Assembly (NCBI RefSeq): GCF_000337675.1
Contig: NZ_AOIB01000015.1
Span: forward strand, 173,651 to 232,276
Direction: 5' to 3'
From: Natronococcus amylolyticus DSM 10524
GTDB taxonomy: Archaea > Halobacteriota > Halobacteria > Halobacteriales > Natrialbaceae
Length of the DNA: 58,626 nucleotides
Below, one piece after another: positions 30,815-35,673 of the stretch. The notes under the pieces were generated by a model. It was not told the origin of the DNA, searched no databases, and saw nothing but the letters and a program-made list of their open reading frames with translations. Numbering within the stretch: position 1 is the stretch's first letter; every line of letters starts with the position of its first letter. The position numbers and the translations under genes were made by a program.

Positions 30815-32473
30815 TCAGTTTTCGAACCGGGCCTGGACGAACGGCTGGATGTCGTCGATGTTGCTCAGTCGGGAGTCCGAGAGCAGGACCGCCTCGGTCT
30901 CGTCGATCGGAACCGAGAGGCTGATCTCCTTGGTCCGACCGTAGCGCCCCTTCGAGACGACGACGGCGTTGACGATGCCGAGCATGTCGAGTTCGCTGAT
31001 GAGGTCGGTCACTCGTCGCTGGGTGAGGACATCGGCGTCGATCTCCTCGCAGAGGCGCTTGTAGATGTTGAACACCTCGCCCGTATTGATGCTGTGAACG
31101 CCGTTTTTCTCGAGCAGGATGGTCGAGAAGAGGACGAGCTTTGACTGCGTGGGAAGGGTGCGAACGACCTCGACGACCCGATCGAGTTCGATCTTGTCCT
31201 GGGCCTGCCGGACGTGTTTCTCGACGATCGTCTCGGCCTGGGAGCGCTCGGCGAGCTCACCCGCCGTTCGGAGCAGATCCAGCGCGCGACGCGCGTCTCC
31301 GTGTTCTTGGGCGGCGAAGGCTGCACACAGCGGGATCACGTCGTCCGACAGCGCATCGCCCTTGAAGGCGACGTTGGCTCGGTGCTGAAGGATATCCCGG
31401 AGCTGATTCGCGTCGTACGGTGGAAAGACGATCTCCTCCTCGCCGAGACTGGACTTGACTCGGGGGTCCAGAAAGTCGGTGAACTTCAGATCGTTCGAGA
31501 TTCCGATGATCGACACGCGAGAGTTCTCGAGTTCGGAGTTCATCCGCGAGAGGTTGTACAGCGTGTCGTCCCCGCTCTTCTCGACGAGCTTGTCGATCTC
31601 GTCGAGCATGATGACGACGACCCGCTCGTCGTAGTCGACGGCGTCGAAGAAGACGCTATACACCCGATCGGTCGGCCAGCCGGTCATCGGTACCTCCTGG
31701 AACGACTCCTTGTCCTCCTCGAGGGAGTTGATTCGGTCCTCGACCTCGTCACGAGTAGAGAACGGCGTGGACGCAAGCGGGTGTTCCCCGTCGGCTACGT
31801 CCGAATCCGCCGGCTCGGCTGACCCCTCCGTTTCGACTGGAGAACCGGACGACGGCGACTCGATGTCGGTTGCAAACGAAACGTCGTCGTTCGGAACGGA
31901 GCCGGTTGCGTCCTCGACGGATTCGCCGGCGGAATCGTCGCGACCGTCGTTCGCTTCGTACTCCTCGAGCGCCTCGAGGCGCTCCTCGAGCGACTCGATC
32001 TTTCGGTCGATCCGTGCCTCGTTCTTCTCGATGAACTTGTTCGCGAGCTGTGCGAGGACGCGGTACTGGGTGTCGGTCACCTCGCAGTTGATGTACTCGA
32101 CGTCACAGGGGACGCTGTACTTCTGAGAGGTGCTCTCGAGTTCCTTGCTGACGAACTTCGCGCTCGCGGTCTTTCCAGTTCCCGTCTTTCCGTAGATCAG
32201 GATGTTCGAGGGCGTCTCGCCCCGGAGTGCGGCGACCAGGATCGTCGCCATCTTGTTGATCTGGTCGGTCCGGTGGGGGAGTTCGTGGGGCGTGTAGGAC
32301 GGACGCAGCACCTCCTTGTTCTCGAAGATCGGCTCGCCGCTGAGCAGGTCGTCGAACAGTCCCTGGCTCGGTTCCTCGTCGCCGATCGCCGTCTCCTCGA
32401 GCGACGTCGAGAACCCGTCGGTCTCGCCCTCGACGTCGTCGGTTCGTGGCGGCTCTGAGTTGTCGTCTGACAT
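30815..32473 (-). CDS. orc1: Origin recognition protein Orc1/Cdc6
   Basis: 552 residues. AAA+ motifs: Walker A GKTGTGKT (95-102), Walker B VVVIMLDEIDKL (286-296), sensor SIIGISND, arginine-finger region LDPRVKSSLGEEEI, sensor 2 GDARRALDLLR. A winged helix follows at the C-terminus (TGEVFNIYKRLCEEIDADVLTQRRVTDLISELDMLG). An acidic coiled-coil/disordered insert (about 150-260) lengthens it beyond the usual 400-odd residues. It faces away from the adjacent origin, the order known for oriC1 with its cognate Orc1 in haloarchaea. It binds ORB elements and recruits the MCM helicase. Confidence 0.97.
   Translation of the reverse strand: MSDDNSEPPRTDDVEGETDGFSTSLEETAIGDEEPSQGLFDDLLSGEPIFENKEVLRPSYTPHELPHRTDQINKMATILVAALRGETPSNILIYGKTGTGKTASAKFVSKELESTSQKYSVPCDVEYINCEVTDTQYRVLAQLANKFIEKNEARIDRKIESLEERLEALEEYEANDGRDDSAGESVEDATGSVPNDDVSFATDIESPSSGSPVETEGSAEPADSDVADGEHPLASTPFSTRDEVEDRINSLEEDKESFQEVPMTGWPTDRVYSVFFDAVDYDERVVVIMLDEIDKLVEKSGDDTLYNLSRMNSELENSRVSIIGISNDLKFTDFLDPRVKSSLGEEEIVFPPYDANQLRDILQHRANVAFKGDALSDDVIPLCAAFAAQEHGDARRALDLLRTAGELAERSQAETIVEKHVRQAQDKIELDRVVEVVRTLPTQSKLVLFSTILLEKNGVHSINTGEVFNIYKRLCEEIDADVLTQRRVTDLISELDMLGIVNAVVVSKGRYGRTKEISLSVPIDETEAVLLSDSRLSNIDDIQPFVQARFEN
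31823..31842 (-). promoter_or_regulatory. ORB-like site D, inside orc1
   Basis: CCCCTCCGTTTCGACTGGAG matches the best origin ORB at 19 of 20 positions. It lies in the codons for SPVETEG in the disordered insert of Orc1, so the protein tolerates it. Confidence 0.6.
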
Positions 32474-32487
32474 CCGTCGTTGGGATA

Positions 32488-32507
32488 CCCCCTCGTTTCG
32501 TGTGGAG
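32488..32507 (-). promoter_or_regulatory. ORB site E, immediately upstream of orc1
   Basis: CCCCCTCGTTTCGTGTGGAG, 17 of 20 matches to the consensus, ends 14 bases before the orc1 ATG at 32473. Bound Orc1 here could control its own expression. Confidence 0.6.
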
Positions 32508-33016
32508 AGACGGACCCGAAAGCAGTGATACAGCGTTTGAACGGCCAGTGCGGCCGATCAAGCGGAATAGCGATCGGTTTCGGATCCAGTTGATGCAAAC
32601 GAAACAGAGGAACACCGCGATATTAAATTCTTCCCTTTCACTCACGTAGGATATGATTCTTTTTGGACGGGTCCGGCCGCGAATCGAGTTGGAGCCGGCG
32701 GCTGATCCTGGCGGCGTTTCGGATCGACTCCGGTTCCAGCGGCGGACGGAACCGCACTGCTATCAGTTCGAGTCCCCGTTCGACAATACTCGATCTCTTT
32801 GGGATGATACCGATACTCGTGGAGTCTTCGGATGGAACTGATACTCGTGGTCGGCAGTTCTCGTTCGGTCAGTCGTCGAGGCGCTCGACGATCGTTTTGG
32901 CTCCGTAATTACTCCCTGCTGGATCCGTTCATCCGGAGTGTTCGATCCGAAGCCGAGGTAGTGGTGGTGATCCGGTGAGGAGAGATTAGCTTCGACGTCG
33001 AAGGAAGCCGGTCGCT

Positions 33017-33036
33017 CTCGAGTCGAAGAGGGGGGG
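33017..33036 (+). promoter_or_regulatory. Degenerate ORB-like site F
   Basis: CTCGAGTCGAAGAGGGGGGG keeps AGTCGAA and the G-run but lacks the AAACGA core. It lies 26 bases from site G and in the opposite orientation. Confidence 0.4.
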
Positions 33037-33050
33037 TTGGTTGTGGCGTT

Positions 33051-33081
33051 CCCCTCCCCCACCCCTTCGTTTCGACTGGAG
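33051..33081 (-). promoter_or_regulatory. ORB element G (reference copy)
   Basis: A CCCCTCCCCCA run joined to CCCCTTCGTTTCGACTGGAG (33062-33081). This is the left major ORB, with the long G-string (on the other strand) that is typical of haloarchaeal origins. Confidence 0.82.
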
Positions 33082-33169
33082 ACCGACGAGGGAGTGGGGT
33101 GGGAGAAACGGGAAGACAGCTACAGGGGACAGAGGTCGAGTCTTGATCGGGTGATTTCGGGGAGCTCGA

Positions 33170-33330
33170 GCGATATACGGGAGTTCCGTAATGAAAGTTG
33201 TAGACTAGTTACTAAGAGTGAAAGTTCGGTAAGGAGCTAGTAACTAGATGCACAAGCCTAGTAAATATCTCTTCTCTAGATCTAGTACGGATATCGTTTT
33301 TCTTGTGAGTAGATAAAGTCTTCCCTTCAC
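33170..33330. other. Probable duplex-unwinding element
   Basis: AT-rich tract between ORBs G and H, in strong contrast to the GC-rich surroundings. It contains six CTAG tetranucleotides within 33205-33285 and the inverted repeat CTAGTTAC (33205-33212) / GTAACTAG (33240-33247). AT-rich DUEs between opposed ORBs are established for archaeal origins. Confidence 0.7.
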
Positions 33331-33364
33331 AAAGCACCCTCCCCTCCCCCTCCCTTTGGAGCGT

Positions 33365-33394
33365 TCCAGTTGAAACGAAGGGGTGGGGGGGTTC
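33365..33394 (+). promoter_or_regulatory. ORB element H
   Basis: TCCAGTTGAAACGAAGGGG at 33365-33383 followed by a TGGGGGGG run to 33391. It is inverted relative to G, so both G-runs point away from the AT-rich tract. With the base before it, it matches the G core at 18 of 20 positions. Confidence 0.82.
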
Positions 33395-33640
33395 CAACAT
33401 CTCGTCCGATCGTTCTGCTCATCGTGAAGTACCTCACCACAAACCAACCACCAAGACTTTCTTATTTGTAGACCGGTACGCAATCGATCCTCCTGTCTTC
33501 CAGCACTTTGAGTGTCATTTGCTATCTTCTTTCATGGAACTCTTTCACAGCAGTCGAATTCTCTACACGTCTGACGTAGGCTTAAGTGAATTCAGTTTGT
33601 AGTACGCGCAGACGCACTTCGCGGTGCCAGAGGGCCAAGG

Positions 33641-34279
33641 ATGGGACTGTTAACAGGACTCAAAGATAGTATCTCCCGGGTTACGGATCGGTTGTTTACC
33701 GACGAGCAACCCAAACGAATCGGAATCTACGGACCGCCCAACGCTGGAAAGACGACGCTTGCGAATCGCATCGCACGGGACTGGACCGGCGATGCGGTCG
33801 GAACCGAAAGTCACGTTCCACACGAAACACGCCGCGCACGGCGAAAGGAAGACGTCGAGATCGAACGTGACGGACGGTCGGTCTCGATCGATATCGTCGA
33901 TACGCCCGGCGTAACCACCAAGGTGGACTACGAGGAGTTCACCGACGAGATGGAGGAGGACGACGCGATCCGTCGGTCCCGCGAGGCCACGGAAGGCGTC
34001 GCCGAGGCGATGCACTGGCTTCGGGAGGACGTCGACGGTGTCATCTACGTTCTCGACAGCGCGGAAGATCCGATCACGCAGGTCAATACGATGCTGATCG
34101 GTATCATCGAATCCCGCGATCTGCCGGTTCTCATCTTCGCGAACAAGATCGACCTCGACGAGGCGAGCGTCAAACGGATCGAGGACGCGTTCCCCCAGCA
34201 CAAGACGGTCCCGCTCTCCGCGAAGGAGGGCCAGAACATGGACGAGGTCTACGACAACATCGCGGAGTACTTCGGGTGA
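33641..34279 (+). CDS. oapA: Origin-associated Era-like GTPase OapA
   Basis: 212 residues. GTPase motifs: G1 GPPNAGKTT near 31-39, G3 DTPGV near 88-92, G4 NKID near 167-170 and G5 SAKEG near 189-193. It is a small Era/Obg-type GTPase without extra domains. The gene is first of three on the right side of the origin; the oapA-oapB-oapC order is that of Haloferax oriC1, where oap denotes origin-associated protein. Its exact role in replication or elsewhere is not proven. ATG at 33641. Confidence 0.93.
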   Translation: MGLLTGLKDSISRVTDRLFTDEQPKRIGIYGPPNAGKTTLANRIARDWTGDAVGTESHVPHETRRARRKEDVEIERDGRSVSIDIVDTPGVTTKVDYEEFTDEMEEDDAIRRSREATEGVAEAMHWLREDVDGVIYVLDSAEDPITQVNTMLIGIIESRDLPVLIFANKIDLDEASVKRIEDAFPQHKTVPLSAKEGQNMDEVYDNIAEYFG

Positions 34280-34285
34280 TCAGTC

Positions 34286-34690
34286 GTGCCCAAGGCAACT
34301 AACCCGGACGACCCCAACGGTAACGACGGCGTACAGATCGATCTCATCAGCGGCGAGCGGATGGACACCCTCGCCTCCACGGAGAAGATCCGGATGATCC
34401 TCGACGGCGTTCACGACGGCAACATCGTTATCCTCGAGGAGGGGCTCACCCCCGACGAGGAGAGCAAGCTCATCGAGATGACGATGGCCGAGATCAGCCC
34501 CGACGCCGGATTCAACGGCATCGAAATCGAGACCTACCCCAAGTCGGAGACGAAGGACTCGTCGCTGCTGGGCCGGCTCATGGGGTCGAACGAGTCGGCG
34601 GCGAAGTTGACGGTGATCGGGCCCGCCAACCAGATCGAAACCCTTCACAAGGACGAAACGCTGATCAGCGCGCTCGTATCCCGTAACTAA
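34286..34690 (+). CDS. oapB: Origin-associated protein OapB (DUF2073)
   Basis: 134 residues, GTG start, six bases after the oapA stop. GVQIDLISGERMDTLASTEKIRMILDGVHDGNIVILEEGLTPDEESKLIE is characteristic of the DUF2073 family, which is always next to the OapA-type GTPase in euryarchaea. The stop shares a base with the next ATG (TAATG), so the three genes are translationally coupled. It has no catalytic motif. Confidence 0.92.
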   Translation: MPKATNPDDPNGNDGVQIDLISGERMDTLASTEKIRMILDGVHDGNIVILEEGLTPDEESKLIEMTMAEISPDAGFNGIEIETYPKSETKDSSLLGRLMGSNESAAKLTVIGPANQIETLHKDETLISALVSRN

Positions 34691-35673
34691 TGCCACACCA
34701 GTGTACGAACTGTGGCCACACGTTTCCGGACGGCTCGAAGGAGATGCTCTCGGGCTGTCCCGACTGTGGCGGGAACAAGTTCCAGTTTACGCCGAACTCG
34801 GACCGGAGCGCCGAGGACGGCGCCGACGGAGATGCCGACCCTGAAACGCCAGCGGCCGATTCCACCGAAGCGGAAGCCGACGGCGTCGCCTCTCGAGCGG
34901 CCGAAACCGTCCGCGGCTGGGTTTCTTCGGAGCCGACCGACGAGTCGGCTCCCGACGCCCCGGAGCCACCGGCAGCCGACCGATCGACGGCGAGCGCCGG
35001 CACGGCTGATCCCCAGCCGACCGGTGACTCTCGAGGGTCCGACCCGACCCGGAACGAGCGGTCGACGTCCCCCGGAGATCGGGGCCGAGCGAGCGACGAC
35101 GGGGACGACTCGTTTACCGAGTGGCCCGACTCGGCTCGTCGCCCCGAGGACCGCTCGTCGCCGTCTGCGGAATCCACGGCCAGCGATGCCACCGACGACC
35201 GCACCGGCTCCGAACTGAACTCGAGTGACCACCGGACCGATCCGATCGCGGACGCCTCGAGCGAGCGCTCCGAGCCCGACCACGAGACGGCGGCGGTGGC
35301 GGACTCGGAGGACTCCGCGCAGGCGAGCGCCCGCAGCGAGGTGGTCCCGGCCGACGATCTCCCGACCGGTTCGGACGTAGCTGGCGAAGGTGACTCGATC
35401 ACCGAGGTCGATCCCATCGACGACGGCGGGAGCGAGGAAACGCCCGATCACGGGCGGGTCGTCAGCGAGCCATCGGGTGAGCAGCCGTCGATCGAGGAAC
35501 TTCGCGCGGAACTCAACGAGCAGTTCGAGAGCATCAAGATCCTCCGACCGGGCCAGTACGAACTCAACCTCATGGAGCTGTACAACCGCGACGAGTACAT
35601 CATCTCGCTCCAGGAGGACGGTCGGTACGTCATTGACGTTCCGGAGTCCTGGCACGACGACGCCGACGAGTAA
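34690..35673 (+). CDS. oapC: Origin-associated zinc-ribbon protein OapC
   Basis: 327 residues. An N-terminal zinc ribbon (CTNCGHTFPDG at 5-8 onward, then CPDCGGNKFQF) is joined by about 220 disordered acidic Ser/Asp/Glu/Pro residues to a conserved C-terminal module of about 55 residues (IEELRAELNEQFESIKILRPGQYELNLMELYNRDEYII). The long linker is expected to vary between species. Third gene of the origin-linked operon; it may interact with OapA/OapB, which is inference from gene order. Confidence 0.9.
   Translation: MPHQCTNCGHTFPDGSKEMLSGCPDCGGNKFQFTPNSDRSAEDGADGDADPETPAADSTEAEADGVASRAAETVRGWVSSEPTDESAPDAPEPPAADRSTASAGTADPQPTGDSRGSDPTRNERSTSPGDRGRASDDGDDSFTEWPDSARRPEDRSSPSAESTASDATDDRTGSELNSSDHRTDPIADASSERSEPDHETAAVADSEDSAQASARSEVVPADDLPTGSDVAGEGDSITEVDPIDDGGSEETPDHGRVVSEPSGEQPSIEELRAELNEQFESIKILRPGQYELNLMELYNRDEYIISLQEDGRYVIDVPESWHDDADE

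Follow-up and report, generated by a model that had tools for sequence, protein, structure and literature searches.

Clustered CTAG sites in the inter-ORB core of oriC1 in Natronococcus amylolyticus and their incomplete association with the m4C methyltransferase gene zim in haloarchaea

The stretch of DNA analysed here (the window, 58,626 bp from Natronococcus amylolyticus DSM 10524) carries an orc1/cdc6 initiator gene (Orc1-1; NF001625, 652 bits; Cdc6_C) at 30815-32473 on the minus strand. Conserved AAA+ blocks of its product are separated by an acidic insert of low complexity (residues about 156-247), and in many genomes the best match starts only past this insert. On the far side of the origin, the plus strand displays a small GTPase gene (33641-34279), probably OapA-like judging by its position, followed by genes for the origin-associated proteins OapB (34286-34690, PF09846) and OapC (34690-35673, PF09845). 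Two inverted origin recognition boxes (ORBs) lie between these gene sets, the left one at 33057-33081 on the minus strand (one mismatch to the motif), with a C-run (its G-string) that extends left to about 33051, and the right one with its G-string at 33364-33388 on the plus strand (no mismatch). They enclose a core of 282 bp (33082-33363, GC 0.49). Inspection by eye revealed two inner G-rich stretches, at 33089-33104 on the plus strand and at 33337-33352 on the minus strand (C-rich on the plus strand), the left one similar to the enhancer repeat described for oriC1 of Haloarcula hispanica (PMC3936714). By nearest-neighbour calculation, the stability of the window over 60 bp is lowest at positions 33258-33317, which agrees with the first-pass annotation of this tract as a duplex-unwinding element. 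With an adjoining orc1/cdc6 gene and inverted ORBs with G-strings flanking an AT-rich unwinding core, the locus is, by gene neighbourhood and layout, a haloarchaeal oriC1; the same neighbourhood, inverted ORBs and AT-rich core are described for H. hispanica in the available text of PMC3936714 and of the comparative study PMC3528665.

No Rfam match was encountered within 32400-33700, and a scan for sigma-70-type promoters and terminators, with bacterial models ill-suited to archaea, came out empty. The core was also considered as an orc1 promoter, which is unlikely because its orientation relative to orc1 is flipped in the window's genus and in other genera. Within the window's genus it is inverted in all three genomes (the window's and both sisters), and it is so in genera of other families as well (loci L140, L214, L093 and L186). 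The inverted ORBs could recombine with each other and so turn the core around, and its orientation relative to orc1 seems to be unimportant.

Six CTAG tetranucleotides start at 33205, 33237, 33244, 33258, 33276 and 33282, exactly as the first-pass annotation had listed them. All six are intergenic, between orc1/cdc6 on the minus strand and the GTPase-OapB-OapC set (33641-35673) on the plus strand, and all fall within the inter-ORB core, where position counts and the family alignment delimit an array of predicted m4C methylation sites at 33205-33285. CTAG was indeed avoided, as that annotation had held: the window contains 15 copies against 85.65 expected from dinucleotide shuffles. Finding six of these within 81 bp had a Poisson probability of 5e-15 (for six or more, given the CTAG rate elsewhere in the window). 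When the 282-bp core was shuffled 5000 times with its dinucleotides preserved, such a cluster never arose, while six CTAGs anywhere in the core turned up 113 times, owing to the frequent CT, TA and AG steps of this sequence. Throughout the 4.4-Mb genome, CTAG triplets with gaps of 30 bp or less occurred in only seven separate places, four of which (oriC1 and three others) are located just upstream of orc1/cdc6 genes (binomial P 1e-8). Two CTAGs had further been assigned to an inverted repeat, CTAGTTAC (33205) and GTAACTAG (33240). The repeat exists; it was encountered in only one of the 41 family cores, the window's own, is for this reason regarded as a by-product, and was rejected as a protein site.

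The genome also harbors a gene for a CTAG-type m4C methyltransferase, zim (L017:1249-2307; PF01555 with a TSPPY motif), whose specificity is assigned by homology. Its relatives include one in Natrinema versiforme, a species with documented m4CTAG. Among four proteins from the 8 kb around zim (part of the neighbouring frames), PADLOC matched only the methyltransferase itself.

The class-wide comparison comprised 194 genomes, all of which displayed an Orc1-1 match at E <= 1e-140, and 170 a relative of the methyltransferase. Stretches upstream of orc1 were taken for 141 of them, including the window's own genome and all 24 zim-less ones, and an inverted ORB pair was found in 133. Two of the eight stretches devoid of a pair were at contig ends (G088, G182), while six were genuine cases. 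G177, with a zim match of only E 3e-21, was classed as zim-less, giving 25 zim-less origins. Families are designated by number: f1 is the window's family, Natrialbaceae as suggested by its named loci; f3 comprises Haloarcula and Halosimplex; and the apparently Halorubrum-like genus g22 is counted apart within f4.

Inter-ORB cores of f1 (41 origins) displayed 20.9 CTAG per kb against 0.69 outside, and those of f3 (13 origins) 22.5 against 0.29. CTAG is thus rare outside the cores and present in orthologous origins, so that neither of the two findings named as refuting in the first-pass annotation was made. Its suggestion that the cluster marks a site for a protein is probably right. Family f4 with zim (32 origins, g22 apart) displayed 8.1 CTAG per kb inside and 0.51 outside, about a 15-fold difference, and densities inside the cores of f6, f7 and f8 were 8.0, 10.9 and 10.1. 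Values were low in f4 without zim (0.58, g22 apart) and in g22 (2.7 without zim, 0 with zim). Sixteen named loci broadly agreed with this pattern. Core counts were six in Natrialba, seven in Natrinema versiforme JCM 10478 (from the same family as the window), eight in Haloarcula pellucida, seven in Halosimplex, nine in Halapricum, six in Haloarchaeobius, four in Halobacteriales QS_5, three in Halococcus, and one each in Halorussus and in Halobellus, whose zim match is broken by a stop. Without zim, two Halorubrum MAGs displayed one and zero CTAGs and SCG-AAA382B04 none. A Haloquadratum MAG and Halobacteriales QS_8 ran counter to the trend, with a zim match and no CTAG, and an ORB pair was missing from one Haloarculaceae MAG. 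A separate occurrence was noted at G176:C1:589249-589450, where 33-bp tandem units carry one CTAG each, away from the clusters typical of the class.

Six f1 genomes keep both orc1-1 and zim and lack the ORB pair upstream of orc1 (loci L158, L159, L166, L181, L182 and L183, from G045, G175, G005, G046, G071 and G043, respectively), their oriC1 being lost or moved. The CTAG array was likewise absent from the stretches taken upstream of orc1 in these six genomes. In them the array is missing together with the ORB pair, which ties it to the origin and not to the gene.

At least two inter-ORB CTAGs were displayed by 81 of the 108 zim-bearing origins and by three of the 25 zim-less ones. All zim losses of the sample lie in family f4, so the association reflects few independent events. 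Within that family, zim-less origins had a mean of 0.40 CTAGs (none in 18 of 25) against 1.27 where zim was present (none in 12 of 37), the difference reaching p = 0.0011 per origin and p = 0.029 per genus cell. The gene is not sufficient for an array, since five zim-bearing g22 genomes had no core CTAG and five of genus g27 had zero or one. CTAG content follows the zim gene and the ORB pair, though incompletely. In the zim tree, where the f4 genes overall did not form one clade, the five g22 genes (L231-L233, L235 and L236) clustered together (support 100/100) and grouped with second copies and genes from other families instead of with the rest of f4 (the closest fork with good support having 95/84). 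It is plausible from this topology that g22 re-acquired zim after loss, with no CTAGs at the origin. The 16 zim-less g22 cores were peculiar in their tetranucleotides, TCGA being over-represented (29 against 9.1 expected) and CATG absent (0 against 10.2). A replacement of CTAG by GATC in the zim-less Halorubrum-like origins with strong Dam-like matches was rejected (12 GATC against 11.2 expected in 16 cores).

The alignment of the 41 f1 cores, 38 of which were used for identities, revealed five recurrent CTAG sites whose 20 columns had a mean identity of 0.91, against 0.58 in the 262 other filled columns; this pattern reveals purifying selection on the f1 CTAGs. Of the window's sites, 33205, 33237 and 33258 match conserved ones, 33282 is a conserved site shifted by 3 bp, and 33244 and 33276 are extra. 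In f1 the motif often carries a one-directional extension, tCTAGtaa (T before in 0.61; T, A and A after in 0.68, 0.66 and 0.56), which is absent from the other families; these have only CTAG itself in common.

Immediately 3' of the last CTAG, at 33286-33298 on the plus strand, the window carries a conserved core element, TACGGATATCGTT, about 80 bp from the right ORB. Its f1 form, T(A/G)CGGATACTGTT, is separated from the downstream ORB by 77-82 bp. A looser pattern, T(A/G)CGG-N-TA(C/T)-N-GTT with up to two mismatches, was found in 108 of the 133 inter-ORB cores, in most families and some 80 bp from the ORB, while with a stricter matrix the element outscored every shuffle in no more than 48 of the 133. 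We know of no name for this element, which is a candidate functional part of oriC1, possibly in helicase loading or initiator contact. Taking it as anchor, in origins with a match 74-100 bp from the ORB, positions near -7 and/or +42 were occupied by CTAG in 13 of 13 f3, five of six f6 and four of five f7 origins. In family f4 these positions flanking the element were occupied in 14 of 27 origins with zim (g22 apart) against one of 16 without (p = 0.003), and in none of the four zim-bearing g22 origins.

Recurrent f1 registers, counted from the element, were -110, -90, -59, -49, -28, -7, +14 and +42, all but +42 in 10.4-bp phase. For the five ancestral sites R was 0.97, a value attained by 0.22 % of random arrays, and for the seven in-phase sites it was 0.99, which none of 4000 attained; arrays of one family share descent, and this phasing therefore represents few independent events. 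It is restricted to recurrent sites, rare lineage-specific ones appearing unphased when compared by eye with the register list. The window's own array (registers -81, -49, -42, -28, -10 and -4) retains two conserved registers and has two sites crowded next to -7; it is unphased (R 0.42, a value that 47 % of random arrays attain) and not spaced at integral turns. No 10.4-bp phasing was detected in the f3 array either, and phasing was rejected as a general rule outside f1, where 36 % of 77 genus-position cells were in register against 29 % at random (reached in 8.7 %). An origin of the phasing by tandem duplication was rejected as well, since no tandem repeat was found in the window's core or in Natrinema versiforme. 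The f1 inter-site stretches resemble one another no more than shuffled ones do (0.253 against 0.269), which likewise argues that duplication does not explain the phasing.

Further orc genes of the same genome displayed a comparable arrangement when CTAGs were counted within 1.5 kb upstream of each gene. CTAGs were located between inverted repeats in nine of nine cases on contig C13, four of four on C28 and three of three on C43, and these repeats differ in sequence, representing other ORB types. On C36 the only CTAG was between repeats, as was one of five on C14; C20 had four CTAGs and no flanking repeat found, and C5 had repeats but lacked CTAG. No such layout was seen at five more orc loci (C30, C32, C17, C33 and C31). 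Since CTAG is shared by origins with different initiators, a genome-wide factor such as Zim is a better candidate than any single Orc protein.

CTAG clusters at haloarchaeal origins are already published. Blow et al. 2016 (PMC4752239, Fig. 6D) reported them upstream of orc1/cdc6, correlating with an orphan m4CTAG methyltransferase; the text prints CATG and the figure legend CTAG. Motif, place, enzyme family and the presence at several origins per genome are as here, the present genome displaying both dense CTAG upstream of orc1/cdc6 and a CTAG-type m4C methyltransferase gene. In contrast to the strict correlation with the enzyme in that report, some of our lineages deviate. Its available text gives densities over 50 kb and does not mention inter-ORB confinement, base-level conservation, registers or 10.4-bp phasing. 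In the literature searched, which covered few subscription journals, we encountered no description of confinement, phasing or registers, and the fine layout is new here. The portions available of a 2023 survey (PMC10609329) restate the cluster without a function, those of PMC6606915 call the role of haloarchaeal CTAG methylation unknown, and those of the oriC1 papers PMC3936714 and PMC3528665 do not mention CTAG, their mutations having been in G-rich repeats and ORBs. According to the consulted parts of Ouellette 2018 (PMC5867850), only oriC2 is CTAG-dense in Haloferax volcanii, and a strain lacking zim along with other RM genes had no growth defect. m4CTAG has been detected, in a partly available record, at 89 % in Haloarcula marismortui, and in Natrinema versiforme BOL5-4 it was methylated at 97 % (PMC6696651); both records come from genera or families with CTAG arrays.

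One explanation, in which the cluster is passive and the avoidance of CTAG is simply relaxed in AT-rich non-coding DNA, draws on its rise outside origins from 0.19 per kb above 60 % GC to 3.3 below 46 % GC. Below 46 % GC, however, cores contain 35 per kb, ten-fold more at equal GC, so GC content of the core fails to explain the density; together with the conservation of the f1 sites and the rarity of CTAG in equally AT-rich zim-less cores, this leaves the passive reading strongly disfavoured and very improbable. The first-pass annotation had suggested that CTAG kinks could ease duplex opening; methylation would in this case be incidental. The cluster does overlap the window's least stable 60-bp stretch, the nearest-neighbour table used gives CTAG a weaker stacking than CATG, GTAC or GATC, and phased kinks would sum to a bend in family arrays. 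This suggestion did not fare well: zim-less origins have few CTAGs and their least stable 60 bp are equally unstable (-1.136 against about -1.17 kcal per step), so computed melting of zim-less cores is just as easy. Five zim-bearing and 16 zim-less Halorubrum-like origins of the same ORB layout manage with zero to two CTAGs, and other weak-stacking words behave differently (TATA 32 against 50.4 expected in family cores). We consider an opening role by flexibility unlikely.

The sites might also be iteron-like repeats for an origin protein that reads CTAG, often as tCTAGtaa, whatever its methylation, which would be secondary. The one-directional extension of the f1 motif, the 10.4-bp phasing and the dissimilarity of the inter-site stretches would all suit such repeats; the extension is nevertheless missing from other families, which share CTAG alone, CTAG content drops where zim is absent, and CTAG recurs at origins with other ORB types. 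This proposal seems rather doubtful to us. That the cluster is a selected, Zim-linked CTAG array, whatever its action, is by comparison very probable. The more specific reading preferred here, to which we assign a probability of roughly 0.6, is that it constitutes a methylation-site array for the presumably orphan m4C methyltransferase Zim used in origin control. It is based at the sequence level on position, enrichment, purifying selection on the f1 sites, the incomplete zim association and recurrence at other origins.

According to this methylation-site reading, Zim would methylate the core CTAGs in N. amylolyticus DSM 10524, and fork passage would leave a dense hemimethylated CTAG patch at the newborn origin until Zim acts. 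This hemimethylated state, its protein reader, or an effect on Orc1/MCM loading and melting might time or mark initiation, by analogy with GATC, Dam and SeqA at oriC of Escherichia coli, and a role in control of initiation or re-initiation may thus be envisaged. Both systems display palindromic four-base sites clustered at the origin and a methyltransferase, orphan in E. coli and presumably so here; they differ in the modification (m6A against m4C here) and in the initiator (DnaA against Orc1 here). We know of no SeqA homologue for the haloarchaeal system, and of no reader protein for m4CTAG. For efficient binding in vitro, SeqA requires a distance of two to three whole 10.4-bp turns between sites, as stated in the available part of PMC5145175; the f1 CTAG spacing of one to three turns is close to this need, whereas the E. 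coli oriC GATC sites are themselves unphased according to the same source.

A base-resolved, selected array in the unwinding core provides exact sites to mutate and makes its role testable. Since the main negative result was obtained in Haloferax volcanii, reportedly CTAG-dense at oriC2 only, array-bearing Natrialbaceae or Haloarcula would be better test hosts. The f1 phasing, of the kind that SeqA needs in vitro, leads to our boldest reading, in which a reader would bind cooperatively: the Natrialbaceae CTAGs would form a phase-locked array on one helix face (registers -110 to +14 above), bound by an archaeal SeqA-like reader of hemimethylated m4CTAG in a methylation-based, once-per-cycle control of replication. 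We put this forward tentatively, as an idea with more chances of failing than of holding. If true, archaea would possess a once-per-cycle control that evolved independently of bacteria and that, within one cell, is common to several origins differing in their initiators.
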